Source: a virus. Taken from it: a DNA stretch of 22,569 nucleotides. The position numbers were made by a program, and so were the translations under genes. The stretch is from IMG/VR virus record IMGVR_UViG_3300027770_001790, positions 1-22,569 of that record, one strand, 5' to 3'. The notes under the pieces are model-generated. The model was not told the origin of the DNA. It worked only from the letters and a program-made list of their open reading frames with translations, and did no database searches. Of this stretch, positions 7,522-14,602 are shown in pieces. Numbering within the stretch: the stretch's first letter is position 1; every line of letters begins with the position of its first letter.

Positions 7522-7697
7522 GTAAGCTCCGGGTGCGTTGGCAGCGTATCGCCCCAGAGACTTACCCGGCCCTCTATCGCGTGCTGTCACTCGACGGCCC
7601 CGGCTGCATGACAGTGAATGTCCAGCCCCCCAACTACCCCGACGGTTTGGAGACTGACATCTTCACGGAGCTTACACTCCAGAACTCGGAAGCATGA
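7509..7697 (+). CDS. Small hypothetical protein (62 aa)
   Basis: A 62-residue product with a basic N-terminus (MAGVGKLRVRWQRIAPETY) and an acidic, hydrophobic C-terminal segment. It starts inside the preceding micro-gene and its stop overlaps the HNH gene's ATG (ATGA). The coupling supports translation. No family recognised. Confidence 0.55.
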   Translation: MAGVGKLRVRWQRIAPETYPALYRVLSLDGPGCMTVNVQPPNYPDGLETDIFTELTLQNSEA

Positions 7698-8086
7698 AGC
7701 GCACATCCCTCCTCACTCTCGTCTCCCGCTGCGGCCCCGACTGCTGGATTTGCGGCATCCCGTGCGACATCCGGCCCGACCCGCACCCACGCCTAGTCAT
7801 CACCCGCGATCACATCCACCCCCGTTCGCATGGCGGCACAGCCAAGCCGAACAACATCCTCCCTGCACACCAGTACTGCAACGTGAAGCGGGGCAATCGA
7901 GAAGTAACCCACGAGCTACGCACCGCTTGCCGCGTGTGGGTAGAACGCGAGGGCGGGAGTGCCATCCCGGATATCCTACTCGCAGCCGCGACTGTAGCCG
8001 CTACGCACAAACGCCCCCAGGTGTCAGGCCGGGGGCGTAAGGTTAAGCGGGATGTGTTGCGATCTATGGACGGGGGCTGGGACTAG
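7694..8086 (+). CDS. HNH endonuclease
   Basis: The 130-residue product has a compact HNH (treble-clef zinc) domain: C17-W-I-C20, the catalytic pair D39-H40 in RDHIHPRSHGG, N54, H59 and C62 in CNVKRGN. Members nick or cut DNA with one metal ion. Phage HNH proteins of this size can be free-standing endonucleases or assist packaging; with no terminase nearby the role is open. The C-terminal 45 residues are basic and probably contact DNA. It is the last plus-strand gene, and its end overlaps the convergent gene at 8064. A near-consensus palindrome (7993-8005) lies in its V-A-A-T codons. Confidence 0.85.
   Translation: MKRTSLLTLVSRCGPDCWICGIPCDIRPDPHPRLVITRDHIHPRSHGGTAKPNNILPAHQYCNVKRGNREVTHELRTACRVWVEREGGSAIPDILLAAATVAATHKRPQVSGRGRKVKRDVLRSMDGGWD
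7993..8005. repeat. Dispersed 13-bp palindrome, one-mismatch copy (TGTAGCCGCTACG)
   Basis: Symmetric except for the last base (G for A). It lies inside the HNH gene. Confidence 0.7.
8012..8037 (-). terminator. Candidate minus-strand terminator at the convergence point
   Basis: Perfect 7-bp stem CGCCCCC (8012-8018) with GGGGGCG (8031-8037). Read on the minus strand it is followed by TTTGT, and it lies 27 bases beyond the stop of the last leftward gene. On the plus strand the hairpin lies inside the HNH gene with no T-run. The T-run is short, so efficiency is uncertain. Confidence 0.5.
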
Positions 8087-10429: not shown

Positions 10430-10876
10430 CTACTCCTCCCCCTCTTTCATCCTGCTGATCTTTAGCGTGAACACGTCGGTCTTTTCCGTAGCCGCATCGA
10501 GTATGCTCTGCTTGACACCGAGATCCAGCAGCTTCGCACGGGAGATGGAAGTACGCGGTGCATTGTAGTACGCCAGCTTGCAGTCCCCGATCACCGCCTT
10601 CTCGATGCCATTGTCCGACACCAGCTTCTTGAGTGTAGCGGTTACACCCATACGCTCCCGTTCGAGCACGTCGATCTGGGATTTCAGATCCATGCTGGTT
10701 TCGACCAGTGACATGAACACGTCAGCAGTCTTCCTGCTCACCTGGTCCCTGATATCTGGGACAGGCTCTTCCTTCTGCTTCGGCTCGGGCTTAAACGGCG
10801 CAGGCTTGCTGCCGATGGGCGCGTTGCGAGAGCCGTGGATCTCGGCACGGGCCGATGCGAGATTACTTTTTGCCAT
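10430..10876 (-). CDS. Hypothetical early phage protein (148 aa)
   Basis: The ATG at 10876 follows AGGAG and lies one base after the RHH gene's stop, so the two are co-transcribed. A Pro/Lys-rich N-terminal 45 residues precedes a helical stretch (DVFMSLVETSMDLKSQIDVLERER) and a strand-helix C-terminal part ending in a segment (LLDLGVKQSILDAATEKTDVFTLKI) typical of small early phage proteins. Specific role unknown. A palindrome at 10634 encodes V-T-A-T. Confidence 0.65.
   Translation of the reverse strand: MAKSNLASARAEIHGSRNAPIGSKPAPFKPEPKQKEEPVPDIRDQVSRKTADVFMSLVETSMDLKSQIDVLERERMGVTATLKKLVSDNGIEKAVIGDCKLAYYNAPRTSISRAKLLDLGVKQSILDAATEKTDVFTLKISRMKEGEE
10634..10646. repeat. Dispersed 13-bp palindrome, copy 11 (TGTAGCGGTTACA)
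   Basis: Perfect consensus match inside the 148-aa gene; the left half-site is exact. Confidence 0.9.
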
Positions 10877-10877
10877 A

Positions 10878-11054
10878 TTAACTCCTATCCTTTGTCTCGA
10901 AAAACGTGGGAGTTAGTTGGATTTCTGGCTGCTTTTCCAGCATAAACCGGATAGCCAGCCGGATAATCACTGACACACTGATACCTGGGTACATAGCCAG
11001 CAGCCTGTCTTTCTCCGCGCCGTCGAGTTGTACTGACGTTTTGACTAATGCCAT
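10878..11054 (-). CDS. Ribbon-helix-helix (CopG/Arc-type) DNA-binding regulator (58 aa)
   Basis: This 58-residue protein has the classic RHH layout: a short strand VKTSVQL (residues 4-10), helix 1 (GAEKDRLLAMYP), a turn, and helix 2 (SVSVIIRLAIRFMLEKQ). RHH dimers insert the paired strand into the major groove and bind short palindromic half-sites, often autoregulating. It begins directly behind a near-consensus promoter, with almost no leader, so the mRNA may be leaderless. A 25-bp inverted repeat overlaps the -35 box, and a palindrome copy (11108) lies further upstream. It is a leading candidate for a phage repressor. Confidence 0.8.
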   Translation of the reverse strand: MALVKTSVQLDGAEKDRLLAMYPGISVSVIIRLAIRFMLEKQPEIQLTPTFFETKDRS

Positions 11055-11062
11055 ATACCTAC

Positions 11063-11091
11063 ATCATACCAGAGTGAGGGTATATTGTCAA
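11063..11091 (-). promoter_or_regulatory. Near-consensus sigma70 promoter of the RHH gene
   Basis: On the minus strand a perfect TTGACA (11091-11086), a 17-bp spacer and TATGAT (11068-11063). The predicted start is at about 11056, only 1-2 bases before the ATG. It divides the leftward operon, so genes from the RHH gene onward can be expressed separately. Confidence 0.8.
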
Positions 11092-11103
11092 TACAAATAT
11101 ACC
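11079..11103. promoter_or_regulatory. Operator-like inverted repeat over the RHH promoter -35
   Basis: GGTATATT (11079-11086), 9 bp, then its exact complement AATATACC (11096-11103). The spacer and left arm contain the -35 hexamer. A protein bound here would block RNA polymerase, as expected for autoregulation by the RHH protein. Its sequence differs from the dispersed palindrome. Confidence 0.65.
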
Positions 11104-11107
11104 GCCG

Positions 11108-11120
11108 TGTACCTGCTACA
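11108..11120. repeat. Dispersed 13-bp palindrome, copy 12 (TGTACCTGCTACA)
   Basis: Covers the stop codon (11116-11118) of the upstream gene and lies 16 bp upstream of the RHH promoter's -35 box. Confidence 0.92.
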
Positions 11121-11310
11121 GTTTCCAAGCCCAGTTAACGATAGCCCAGTTCTCTATACACTCCTCGTCTGTGGGGACTATGCCGATAGCCTCGCATCTG
11201 TCCCGGAAATAGGGTCCGTATGTGGCCAAGACTTCTGCTTCTGTCACAGTCACTACTCTGTTGCCGTCAGGGGATTCTTCGTCCTGTTCGTTGTATGCCC
11301 ACGTCGTCAT
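11116..11310 (-). CDS. Small acidic Trp-rich phage protein (64 aa)
   Basis: The ATG at 11310 has GGGGGG upstream at good spacing; an in-frame GTG at 11322 is less likely. The 64-residue acidic product ends in CIENWAIVNWAWKL, a Trp-rich ending I recall from small conserved phage proteins of unknown function, so the family link is tentative. The start region carries the remnant end of an older methyltransferase gene, whose TGA would have overlapped this ATG. Confidence 0.65.
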   Translation of the reverse strand: MTTWAYNEQDEESPDGNRVVTVTEAEVLATYGPYFRDRCEAIGIVPTDEECIENWAIVNWAWKL

Positions 11311-11318
11311 AACACCCC

Positions 11319-11340
11319 CCACTGAGATGCCATTGCGTCT
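11319..11340. repeat. Direct repeat, copy B (3' end of methyltransferase gene)
   Basis: Twenty of 22 bases match 11942-11963; the shared core is TGAGATGCCATTGCGT (11323-11338). In the methyltransferase frame it reads ANAMASQW and would continue GVL-stop, the stop overlapping the next gene's ATG. Confidence 0.85.
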
Positions 11341-11896
11341 ATTTCCAGTTTATGGAAAACGCACTTAGTCTTGTTATCCATTCTTTGAACTCTTCTACTG
11401 TGTGATCCTGCTTGGCTATGTTGCACATTTTACAGCAAGGGACTACGTTCGTTTCTACGTAGCCGTGGCTATTGTCCACTCTATCCAGCCCGTTGTACGG
11501 GAACCCGTCTAAATGCTTCTTGTCTCGGAGAACATTGGAGCTTTTTACTCCGCAGTACTCACATGGTAGTCGAACGATTAAATCTACAAACTCTTTGGAT
11601 AAAGACCAGATCAGTGACCTGTCCTTTGCGTGTCTCTTGGCTCTCAGGATTAGCTGGTTAATGGCCCATCCGTCATTAGCGAGTCGAGTCGATCTTTTGA
11701 CTTCCCTCGATAGGCACCCGCAGCTTCTTGTGTTGTTGGATGTCAGTAATGTGCCTTGTACAGTCTTTGTGACTCCGCATATGCAGCTACAGAGATAGTG
11801 CCGCCTCCACCTCTTATCTTTGTGACTCAAGCGAATGACGGTTAGCCTGTAGAAAATATCACCCTCTTTGACTGTCGGTTTTTTAGATGAGGCCAT
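11339..11896 (-). CDS. HNH homing endonuclease (free-standing)
   Basis: The N-terminal part (10-65) is the zinc-type DNA-binding module of phage homing nucleases: CSCICG (36-41) and SCGC (58-61). The C-terminal part is an HNH nuclease: CEYC (112-115), LDRVDNSHGY (137-146), N150 and CCKMCN (154-159). Such genes cut an allele lacking them and are copied in by repair. The gene is visibly more A+T-rich than its neighbours and lies exactly between two 22-bp direct repeats derived from the methyltransferase 3' end, its stop codon at the repeat border. No strong ribosome site is visible. Confidence 0.88.
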   Translation of the reverse strand: MASSKKPTVKEGDIFYRLTVIRLSHKDKRWRRHYLCSCICGVTKTVQGTLLTSNNTRSCGCLSREVKRSTRLANDGWAINQLILRAKRHAKDRSLIWSLSKEFVDLIVRLPCEYCGVKSSNVLRDKKHLDGFPYNGLDRVDNSHGYVETNVVPCCKMCNIAKQDHTVEEFKEWITRLSAFSINWK

Positions 11897-11932
11897 ATCC
11901 CCACTATACCACTGTAGCCCCCCATTCTTCCA

Positions 11933-12568
11933 TCAAAAATTCCATTGAGATGCCATTGCGTTTGCCCACCCCTGGAACGTCTTCGCCCGGTCTTTACCCC
12001 GAGTCGGGGACGGTCCCATGTCATGAACACTCGTGCGGTATGGGGGCGGCAGGGGATTGGTTGGCACGAGCGGAGGCAACCCGCGCAGCCACAGATGTGT
12101 AGTCTTCAGCTCCGGGTGCCCGTACTCGTGTGGCTGGATAGTCTGAGTGTAGCGTCTCGGGATACGGAGGATGGCCTGCTCATGCTGTACCGGGTTCTCC
12201 ACGCACAGCCGGGGGCATTTGATATCCAGCACCCGGTTAAAGAACGCCGCTGCTTCCTCCATGTTCTTCCACCGCACCGGGTCTATCCCGTGGACCTTTC
12301 GGTTCTGCTTCACGAACTTACCGCTCGGCATCATCACCAGTCGGGACTGGTACAGGTGCTTGACCCCGGAGTTAGACAGGTATGTGCATGGCGGATGAAT
12401 TATTGCGAGGTCGAAACTGGAAATAGGCACAGACAGTATATCCCCCTGAATGTGGAATGGAGAATTATCATCCGGGGGGAATAGATCGCAAGACCATGCA
12501 TCGTGTCCTTTGTCTCGGAATGCCCGCCTCACTACCCCTGAAACCTCACAGCCCACAAGTACTCTCAT
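11933..12568 (-). CDS. C5-cytosine-methyltransferase-like protein
   Basis: The 211-residue product begins with a Rossmann entry (MRVLVGCEVSGVVRRAF), has HPPCTYLS (58-65) at the position of the catalytic Pro-Cys motif IV and VENPV (123-127) matching the ENV motif VI. It is much shorter than host Dcm-type enzymes and lacks an obvious target-recognition domain, as do many phage members annotated as DNA methylases. It may methylate cytosine for protection, or be a divergent relative. Its start overlaps the upstream HNH stop (ATGA). Its 3' end appears altered by insertion of the second HNH gene (now ends ...SQWNF). Confidence 0.75.
   Translation of the reverse strand: MRVLVGCEVSGVVRRAFRDKGHDAWSCDLFPPDDNSPFHIQGDILSVPISSFDLAIIHPPCTYLSNSGVKHLYQSRLVMMPSGKFVKQNRKVHGIDPVRWKNMEEAAAFFNRVLDIKCPRLCVENPVQHEQAILRIPRRYTQTIQPHEYGHPELKTTHLWLRGLPPLVPTNPLPPPYRTSVHDMGPSPTRGKDRAKTFQGWANAMASQWNF
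11942..11963. repeat. Direct repeat, copy A (3' end of methyltransferase gene)
   Basis: The copy inside the present methyltransferase gene, encoding ANAMASQW. It borders the homing-endonuclease insert on its upstream side; see copy B at 11319-11340. Confidence 0.85.
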
Positions 12569-13092
12569 AGTGATTTCCAGATTGAGCGGTTGGAGATTCT
12601 GGTTATTGTGGGTCTGCTGACTTGGTAGATATTAGCTAGAGATTGTTGAGACATTCCGCCGTCCAGCCTCTCTCGTATTTTTACCACCTGCTGCGCTGTT
12701 AAGCGAGATCCGCCGCATCTCTTATCCCAAGTGCCGTGTTCTTTTTTATCATGTTCATTCTGTTTGTATGTCCCCCACCTAAGATTTTCAACCCAGTTGT
12801 GATCTGAGATTCCGTCTCGATGCCGAACACACGCTTTAGGAAATGGCTTAGGGCTTATGAAGCATTCTGCGACAAGGATGTGAATGTAAGTCCGCCGACT
12901 TATCCCATGTCCATCCCGTAGATCGATACCGAGATAACCTGATTCGTGTCGTCGTAATTTAGGTTTACTCCACCTATCCTCTGTAGTGAATCCGTTATAG
13001 AACATTCCAGATCTCCATCTGGATTCTATTTCTCCATTCGGGTATACACGGTATGCGGGGAAATTCGGCACAAGCACGGGCGTATTAAGCAT
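12565..13092 (-). CDS. NUMOD4/HNH_3-type homing endonuclease
   Basis: The 175-residue product has the usual order: an N-terminal strand module (YRVYPNGEIESRW, 14-26) of NUMOD4 type, an HNH_3 core with H71, VRHRDG (89-94) and NWVENLRWGT (99-108), and a C-terminal helix-turn-helix (130-170, LTAQQVVKIRERL ... MSQQSLANIYQVSRPTITRI). Such enzymes are mobile and target conserved phage genes. It is more A+T-rich than its surroundings, overlaps the methyltransferase start, and begins within a fragment of another methyltransferase allele. Its ribosome site is weak. Confidence 0.88.
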   Translation of the reverse strand: MLNTPVLVPNFPAYRVYPNGEIESRWRSGMFYNGFTTEDRWSKPKLRRHESGYLGIDLRDGHGISRRTYIHILVAECFISPKPFPKACVRHRDGISDHNWVENLRWGTYKQNEHDKKEHGTWDKRCGGSRLTAQQVVKIRERLDGGMSQQSLANIYQVSRPTITRISNRSIWKSL

Positions 13093-13192
13093 GAGATGAT
13101 TGCATCACAAGTCTATGCACTATTGTAGATGTGTTTCGTATGAATGCGTCTCGGATGACGCCGCTGTACTCGAATGCGATGAGAACTTTCAT
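13085..13192 (-). pseudogene. N-terminal remnant of a methyltransferase gene
   Basis: An ATG at 13192 behind the AGGAG at 13205-13209 opens a 35-codon frame beginning MKVLIAFEYSGVIRDAFI. This matches the start of the intact methyltransferase (MRVLVGCEVSGVVRRAF) at 10 of 18 positions, then degenerates and stops at 13085. The DNA differs clearly from the intact gene, so this is not a recent duplication; it looks like the 5' stub of a resident allele displaced by the HNH-methyltransferase block. Confidence 0.7.
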
Positions 13193-13204
13193 GTATCAGC
13201 TACA
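13192..13204. repeat. Dispersed 13-bp palindrome, copy 13 (TGTATCAGCTACA)
   Basis: Between the polymerase stop and the methyltransferase remnant, spanning the gap from its AGGAG to its ATG. Confidence 0.92.
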
Positions 13205-13207
13205 CTC

Positions 13208-14602
13208 CTATTTCGGCAACAATCCCCAGCTCGGGGCCGTACACCAGTTCGCCTTCACAGGCACTCGTAACTCCACGCAATTCTCAAACACCTGCTTGAT
13301 GAGCACCCCCAGTTCCTTCGCCATGTCGGTCCTGCACTCGAACAGTAACTCATCATGGATCTGGAGCAGCGGCCAGCAGTATTCGGACAGATGCTCGACC
13401 CAGAGGTCATACACCTCTGCCATCGCCAGTTTGATGATACCCTGCGCTCCCGACTGATACACAAAATTGGCCGCTTCCCGAAGTGCAGCCATCTGCACCC
13501 ATTCATGCACGCTCTTAACCGCAGCCACATGTAGCACCCGGCCCCACATGTCATACATGTAGCCGCGAGTTCTCGCAATCCGATGCGCCCGCTTCCGATC
13601 CTCCATCACTCCCGAGTACCGGATGTAGAACTGATTGATGATGTTCTGGCACGGGTCCTCAGTCCACCTCGGCTCGAACTTCCCGCAGTCGTGCTCCATT
13701 GCTTTCTTACCGCAGTTCGCACAGATTACGGGCATCTGCTCCTGCAACCCCACCGCTGTGACATCGTACAGCGCAGCCAGCACGCATGTTTTACTCGGGG
13801 TCCTGTGCTCCAGCTTGTTGACGGTCGGGTACTTCCACTCCCCGGACTTATCCCGGTACCGCTCGTCCTTTAGCTTGAATGCAGATGTCGCGAAGTCAGA
13901 GTATATATCCTCTTCATTCTGGTATACCGACATCAAGTTCCGGTCGCCGCTGCTGTCTGCGGCCATCCGCACTTCGATCTGCGAGAAGTCTACGGAGACG
14001 TAGCTCCAGCCGGGGTCGGTGATGAATCCCTTTCGGATCTCCAGCCCCCTGTCGGTACGCGACGGCATCGCAAGCAGGTTCGGATCACTGCAACTTAGAC
14101 GGCCACTGGGAACGCGGGTCGTCTTAAAGTTCGGGAACATACGCCACACCCCGAACTTGGTCCGGGTAGCCAGCTTCGGCATCGGCACCACATACGTCCC
14201 ACGGAGCTTGGAGAGTTCCTTGAAGTCCTGCACCAGCCCCACCACCGGGTGCTCGTGCTGGATGGCCTTCAGCACCTCATCCTCCACTGATTCCCGGTCG
14301 CCGCTGGATGTCAGCTTGATACGGGCCTGCTTCAGCCCCAGCTTCTTGAAGAGTAAGTCGGCAACTTGATCGCCCGAGTCGATGTTGACGTAGTAGCCAG
14401 TGCTCTCCCGGACCTCCTCGGTTATCCGCTCCATATCCCGAGTCAGGTCCACTTCCATCTTGGCGAAGTGGGAGAGATCAACCTGAAGGCCACGCCCCGC
14501 GCACGTTTGCACAAAGGGCATGGCATTCATGTCGAGTCGGAATGCGGAACGGGGAGACGGCCCCAAATTGTGCATCCTTATCCCGTTGTAAAGTCTGAGC
14601 AT
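13208..14602 (-). CDS. Family A DNA polymerase (polymerase domain only)
   Basis: The 464-residue enzyme has motif A (VDFSQIEVR, catalytic D205), motif B with R267, K271 and Y279 at Pol I spacing, and motif C (QIHDELLFE, H416-D417-E418). The 3'-5' exonuclease domain is absent; one is encoded separately at 15886-17259. The residue equivalent to E. coli Phe762 is Leu275, a variant common in virome polymerases and proposed to go with temperate or slow replication. Just after motif B an extra insert holds CANC (294-297) and HDC (304-306), perhaps a zinc knuckle. YD replaces the usual YG. It should replicate the phage genome with the nearby helicase, SSB and exonuclease. Confidence 0.93.
   Translation of the reverse strand: MLRLYNGIRMHNLGPSPRSAFRLDMNAMPFVQTCAGRGLQVDLSHFAKMEVDLTRDMERITEEVRESTGYYVNIDSGDQVADLLFKKLGLKQARIKLTSSGDRESVEDEVLKAIQHEHPVVGLVQDFKELSKLRGTYVVPMPKLATRTKFGVWRMFPNFKTTRVPSGRLSCSDPNLLAMPSRTDRGLEIRKGFITDPGWSYVSVDFSQIEVRMAADSSGDRNLMSVYQNEEDIYSDFATSAFKLKDERYRDKSGEWKYPTVNKLEHRTPSKTCVLAALYDVTAVGLQEQMPVICANCGKKAMEHDCGKFEPRWTEDPCQNIINQFYIRYSGVMEDRKRAHRIARTRGYMYDMWGRVLHVAAVKSVHEWVQMAALREAANFVYQSGAQGIIKLAMAEVYDLWVEHLSEYCWPLLQIHDELLFECRTDMAKELGVLIKQVFENCVELRVPVKANWCTAPSWGLLPK

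Follow-up and report, generated by a model that had tools for sequence, protein, structure and literature searches.

Free-standing HNH endonuclease genes in a phage methyltransferase gene and the probable replacement of its displaced ends

The WHO elements of Torulaspora and Lachancea yeasts consist of a nuclease gene and a resistance-giving 3′ end of the target gene, and the old end is pushed downstream (PMC7282813). In the mobile ORFs of fungal mitochondria (atp6 of Allomyces; atp6, atp9, cox2, and nad3 of Glomus), a foreign C-terminus is brought by the endonuclease ORF, while the native one is displaced downstream (PMC3630166). The free-standing homing endonucleases of phage T4 (seg and mob) spread by intronless homing, in which a neighbouring gene is cut (PMC2988022). 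The ShiLan domain is a homing HNH inserted in a phage DNA methylase, and the start of the insert resembles the sequence after the insertion site (PMC11855218). My literature search, which was thin on subscription journals, gave no account of a phage nuclease that replaces the end of its target and leaves the old end displaced. F-CphI, another homing endonuclease, reportedly lies next to a psbA intron of a cyanophage.

The window analysed in this study is a 22,569-nucleotide stretch of viral DNA (positions 1 to 22,569 of the IMG/VR record IMGVR_UViG_3300027770_001790). Its minus strand has, in this order, polA, a decayed methyltransferase (MT) start, an HNH endonuclease gene (HNH1), an intact MT gene, a second HNH gene (HNH2), and a displaced MT end (Table 1). 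The reading frames of HNH1, MT, and HNH2 are all intact. No Rfam family matched positions 10800-13400 at E values up to 1, and therefore there is no known group I or group II intron around HNH1 or HNH2. It is likely that two free-standing homing endonuclease genes lie in one resident MT gene, each substituting the end that it displaced. The replacement of the 3′ end by HNH2 is well supported, and HNH1 would have performed the mirror event on the 5′ side.

Table 1. Features of the methyltransferase locus in the window, in the order of the minus strand
Feature	Position	Strand	Basis or remark
DNA polymerase A, polymerase domain	13208..14602	-	PF00476, 2.7e-72; directly upstream of old MT start
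Displaced 5′ end of resident MT, codons 1-18 MKVLIAFEYSGVIRDAFI	13139..13192	-	shuffles and identity to MT starts
Possible decayed continuation of 5′ remnant, with ~5-nt insertion and in-frame TAG	13092..13138	-	P = 0.025, suggestive only
HNH1, HNH_3-type endonuclease with helix-turn-helix tail	12565..13092	-	phrog_59, 8.5e-30; PF13392, 4.9e-5 (just below Pfam's cutoff)
MT codons 1-62, putative arrival with HNH1	12383..12568	-	GC3 0.45, change point at codon 62
Intact C5-cytosine-type DNA methyltransferase, 211 aa, chimeric	11933..12568	-	phrog_757, 1.5e-46
Left copy of MT 3′-end repeat, inside MT	11942..11961	-	MT then ends QWNF*, not QWG
New end of MT frame and HNH2 leader	11897..11941	-	TGGTATAGTGGGGATATG, partly common to L134 (TGGTGTAATGGGGATATG)
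HNH2, PacI/endonuclease VII-like HNH nuclease	11339..11896	-	phrog_1035 (endonuclease VII), 7.7e-18; phrog_374 also matched; MT-adjacent clade
Displaced 3′ end of resident MT, AMASQWGVL*	11307..11338	-	19/20 identity to MT end and family motif
Next gene downstream, formerly coupled to MT stop (ATGA overlap)	11116..11310	-	sequence

No close relatives of the window phage were found by DNA among phages or by polymerase among viral contigs. The polymerase A of the window seems to be split (17259-15886 and 14602-13208): one ORF encodes a UDG and an exonuclease, another the polymerase, and three ORFs lie between them. A further HNH-like ORF lies at 7694-8086 on the plus strand (CGPDCWICG...DHIHPRSHGG), and a near-consensus promoter (TTGACA-17-TATGAT; 11091-11063, minus strand) is located just ahead of a 58-aa ORF (11054-10878).

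The window MT keeps the invariant residues of its family, including HPPCT and ENP. Its predicted structure (pLDDT 87.8) matches the folds of M.HaeIII, M.HhaI, and DNMT3 (E values from 2e-6 to 4e-6 for M.HaeIII and DNMT3). By this predicted fold and the PPC and ENP motifs, it is classed as a putative C5-cytosine DNA methyltransferase. The family has a C-terminal motif, AMAxQWG, and AMAxQW sits in the last helix (199-208) of the predicted structure.

An earlier note on this DNA, made from the letters alone, had reported a near-exact copy of the MT end downstream of HNH2. This was confirmed; the 20-mer at 11319-11338 differs from the MT end (11942-11961) at a single position, and the downstream copy runs on as ...GGGGTGTTATGA, whose translation contains the family motif and whose stop codon shares bases with the ATG (11310) of the gene that follows. 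HNH2 carries the nuclease domain of a known class of homing and restriction nucleases. The structure of PacI was matched both by profile (4e-6) and by fold (7.8e-5), the predicted structure of HNH2 being of fair confidence (pLDDT 85.5). A motif in the HNH2 leader might, as a guess, be an extended -10. The window HNH2 stops on its own stop codon ahead of the displaced tail, without fusion to it. Its C-terminus (SAFSINWK) was considered as an old MT tail, but a gapless alignment with fused tails gave too few identities for such a claim.

Is HNH2 found beside the MT in other phages? The best phage match to HNH2 is a gene of Rhizobium phage RHph_I3_11, which also lies directly after an MT and whose last residues, AEQWG, are an MT tail. 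The MT search gave L134, in which the HNH after the MT has the tail TAMATQWG, and a search with three HNHs gave further loci with the MT-HNH2 order (L184, L185, L186, L187, L188, L190, L191, L192, and L198); in L199, such a locus is cut by the contig end. When contigs under several locus numbers are counted once, RHph_I3_11 and no fewer than 10 further contigs, apart from the window, have an HNH2-family gene directly after the MT. The genes in this position, from at least 12 diverse phages, form one clade in a tree of 109 sequences, with a basal support of only 0.22.

An MT tail is frequent in these nucleases. Of the 14 MT-adjacent HNHs (the near-duplicates L192 and L205 included), 10 have QWG within their last 40 residues, versus none of 116 other relatives (P = 4e-12), and in most of the MT-adjacent HNH2-like genes the HNH C-terminus is the displaced MT tail. 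AMAxQWG is found in none of the 12 MTs beside HNH2-type genes versus 110 of the 157 MTs without one (P = 1.5e-6), a comparison in which 4 of the 12 come from subfamilies unsampled in the comparison set; within the same MT subfamily the count is 0/8 (P = 1e-4). Among the loci themselves, some of which depend on one another (the HNHs of L187 and L188 are of one lineage, as are those of L010 and L191), QWG is present in 10/12 displaced copies versus 1/12 MT copies (P = 0.004). About 30% of MTs without HNH2 likewise deviate from AMAxQWG. HNH2-type genes lie at the same site in 12 loci, and the motif of the MT is altered in all 12, which may represent loss of the HNH2 cut site.

In L028, a different HNH gene follows the MT and has the tail LAKQWEDL*, but 10.5% of random windows were as good; the likeness is not above chance, and L028 was left out of the counts. 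L192 (2528-3070) and L205/L321 have an HNH2 relative with an apparent mid-gene frameshift, which is probably decaying. L087 (1946-2668) has no nuclease; its MT carries the C-terminal motif twice in one frame, as AMANQWN and, 114 nt on, as AMADQWG, possibly as the scar of a lost nuclease.

The earlier note had expected an uninterrupted MT in relatives. For this 3′ insertion, such alleles were found elsewhere: L130 has the uninterrupted form for L134, and L103 has that for RHph_I3_11; none came from a close relative of the window phage. L130 is closely related to L134, and the two share 87% and 96% identity in their flanks. The MT of L130 is uninterrupted; L134 has a 564-bp stretch with the HNH gene between two copies of 19 bp from the MT end, and the surplus of mismatches at the L134 MT end was not significant (P = 0.17). 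The displaced tail of RHph_I3_11 closely matches the HNH-free relative L103 (TGGCAGAACAGTGGGGTT is shared), unlike the MT end of RHph_I3_11 itself. In related genomes, one fixed site either carries or lacks the HNH2-type gene. In a separate comparison, the MT and HNH pair of RHph_I3_11 (L010, 3407-4498) is absent in RHph_N3_19 (L018, 2207), in which the next gene lies directly after nrdJ.

The unit of transfer can be seen in L187 and L188, whose HNHs are 86% identical, while their MTs are 59% identical. Along the locus, identity runs at about 0.4-0.7 over the MT body, rises to mostly 0.8-0.9 from the MT tail through the HNH, and drops to 0.3-0.4 past the displaced tail. From these sharp edges, the MT tail and the HNH gene together are the unit that moved. 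HNH2 has spread horizontally, independently of its flanks. The distances of MT and HNH correlate overall (0.46, P = 0.0065), and therefore part of the HNH2 spread follows the MT.

In the window and likewise in L134, the two copies of the repeat differ by one synonymous base, and these 19-20 bp repeats could be mere target-site duplications. HNH2 would then be an ordinary free-standing nuclease gene that entered by illegitimate repair with an approximately 20-bp target duplication, bringing no replacement end, and the motif changes would be drift. I give this explanation little probability. The two MT ends differ in protein sequence in L184, L185, L191, L192, and L010, and the MTs of L187 and L188 have a common foreign tail of about 20 residues on bodies that are only ~60% identical. 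Furthermore, mere insertion would keep AMAxQWG in the MT, whereas the MTs beside HNH2 lack it, which favours replacement of the 3′ end.

On the 5′ side, the diverged stub of an MT start that had been proposed upstream of HNH1 proved to be a real MT end. The stub ORF (13192-13085), which begins MKVLIAFEYSGVIRDAF, scores 50 against the window MT, while the maximum in 2000 shuffles was 39. The in-frame likeness covers only about 18 codons, and the stub is identical to the MT start of another phage at 43/54 nt versus 28/54 nt for the window's own MT start. Past codon ~18, a frameshifted remnant, perhaps as far as codon ~33 and with TAG in place of TGG, is faintly suggested by dinucleotide shuffles (Table 1) and by the same offset given by 44 family members. 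In neighbour-similarity tests, the stub did not group with the MT body, and the nearest MT-body relatives were uninformative on the stub sequence. The ATG of HNH1 overlaps the stop of the stub ORF, and the stop of HNH1 overlaps the ATG of the MT. Since the stub stop overlaps the HNH1 start, the stub ORF may now act as a translational leader for HNH1.

The GC3 of the first 62 MT codons is close to that of HNH1 (0.43), while codons 62-211 have a resident-like GC3 of 0.745 (0.67-0.77 in most resident genes). The change point at codon 62 (support 51-69) has a permutation P of 0.0028, and the first 60 codons have a lower GC3 than every one of 3347 60-codon windows from resident genes. This change point is moderate evidence, because two resident genes have scores that match or exceed that of the MT (9.81 and 8.5 vs 8.14). 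The simplest reading would be that HNH1 brought a new MT start of about 60 codons and that the displaced start has since been decaying as the stub; the case for this comes from one locus, that of the window, and from composition.

Alternatively, the stub and HNH1 may be separate in origin. Ordinary phage recombination would then have doubled or exchanged the MT start, with HNH1 a bystander. No close relative of HNH1 was found, no second locus with HNH1 and a stub was found among ~165 MT loci, and in L163 the MT start is duplicated with another gene in between, all of which agree with a separate origin. However, HNH1 is placed exactly between the stub and the MT, and MT codons 1-62 have its GC3, so that a bystander role of HNH1 is possible but rather unlikely. 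In L163 (1468-3091), 57 codons of the MT start are repeated 606 bp upstream of the full MT; an HNH-like ORF lies upstream of the copy, another ORF lies between the copy and the MT, and the arrangement resembles two tandem alleles.

Did HNH1, MT, and HNH2 arrive together? The earlier note had proposed that a single HNH-MT-HNH block replaced the interior of the resident MT and that the block would be a mobile unit with its own replacement target. Both remnants do lie outside the two HNH genes, and phage HEG-islands that bracket genes are on record (PMC10448857). However, HNH2 adjoins the MT without HNH1 in all other loci found, and therefore HNH2 moves alone. In addition, the MT interior is resident-like in composition and only codons 1-62 are HNH1-like, while the MT 3′ end and the displaced tail are nearly identical (19/20). 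A single block is thus improbable, and a mobile unit carrying its own replacement target survives at least for the 3′ side. I favour, with fair assurance, two insertions that each brought only the adjoining MT end.

HNH2 resembles the WHO elements in its arrangement: it lies just downstream of its target gene, the target is chimeric, and its unit carries the target 3′ end, with the old 3′ end behind the nuclease (PMC7282813). The WHO protein is an intein-derived LAGLIDADG-type zinc-finger protein with FBA1 as the target and fragments of ~400 bp (PMC7282813). In contrast, the present nuclease is a PacI/EndoVII-like HNH in phages, the target is a methyltransferase, and the very short tails are often fused to the HNH C-terminus. 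With this nuclease and this target, HNH2 is therefore not a WHO element and is only WHO-like in its proposed working; it is classed with the free-standing HNH homing endonuclease genes. The fungal mobile ORFs differ in having LAGLIDADG or GIY-YIG nucleases and a mitochondrial location, and no 5′-end counterpart was reported there (PMC3630166). The T4 seg and mob genes are intergenic with cut sites hundreds to thousands of bp off, and the review describes no displaced target end (PMC2988022). F-CphI and other Endo VII-motif homing endonucleases are free-standing in phage and belong to a related class by the phrog_1035 match, while the available part of that source reports no target-end replacement (PMC6083498). 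The ShiLan domain lies inside its gene, out of frame, and is retained in the methylase product with no displaced end (PMC11855218).

The following course of events is proposed. The home of the HNH2 clade would be the stretch encoding the last MT helix (AMAxQWG). HNH2 would cut the element-free MT, presumably at this motif, and repair would copy in a unit consisting of the altered MT 3′ end and the HNH gene. The recipient would thereby obtain a whole chimeric MT with a changed target motif, which may resist cutting. Downstream of the HNH gene, the old MT 3′ end would remain, in many cases as an in-frame C-terminal part of the HNH. At the MT start, HNH1 may have acted as the mirror image, with ~60 new codons copied in and the old start left as the stub.

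HNH2 relatives at other genes were also assessed. In 4 of 66 loci without an MT, the likeness between the end of the neighbouring gene and that of the HNH exceeded the 99th percentile of cross-pairings, and only L340 looks convincing. Its polA-like gene (589-1575) ends in DYWKKG*, and the following HNH2 relative (1643-2176) also ends in DYWKKG*, which suggests the same end displacement at a polA-like gene. In L017 (277-2908; RHph_N3_13), a ribonucleotide reductase gene is split by a Srd/EndoVII-like gene related to HNH2.

The prospects are about even that these genes represent a phage clade of homing endonucleases that rescue their target with an altered, cleavage-resistant end and reuse the displaced piece as their C-terminus, joined in the window by a second, unrelated HNH at the other end, so that nucleases would have replaced both ends of one gene; the polA case of L340 would make the strategy general for the nuclease family. 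End replacement allows a free-standing homing endonuclease gene to enter a coding sequence without destroying it, as is known from yeast (WHO) and fungal mitochondria. The occurrence of end replacement in phages, where the nuclease is unrelated and at least 12 loci share one site, points to convergent evolution. The empty and filled alleles provide a compact system for measuring target, resistance, and co-transfer. End replacement also accounts for odd phage annotations, namely nuclease genes whose tails resemble those of methyltransferases, and methyltransferases that end in an unusual way. Replacement of the HNH2 type may be a route to chimeric phage methyltransferases.
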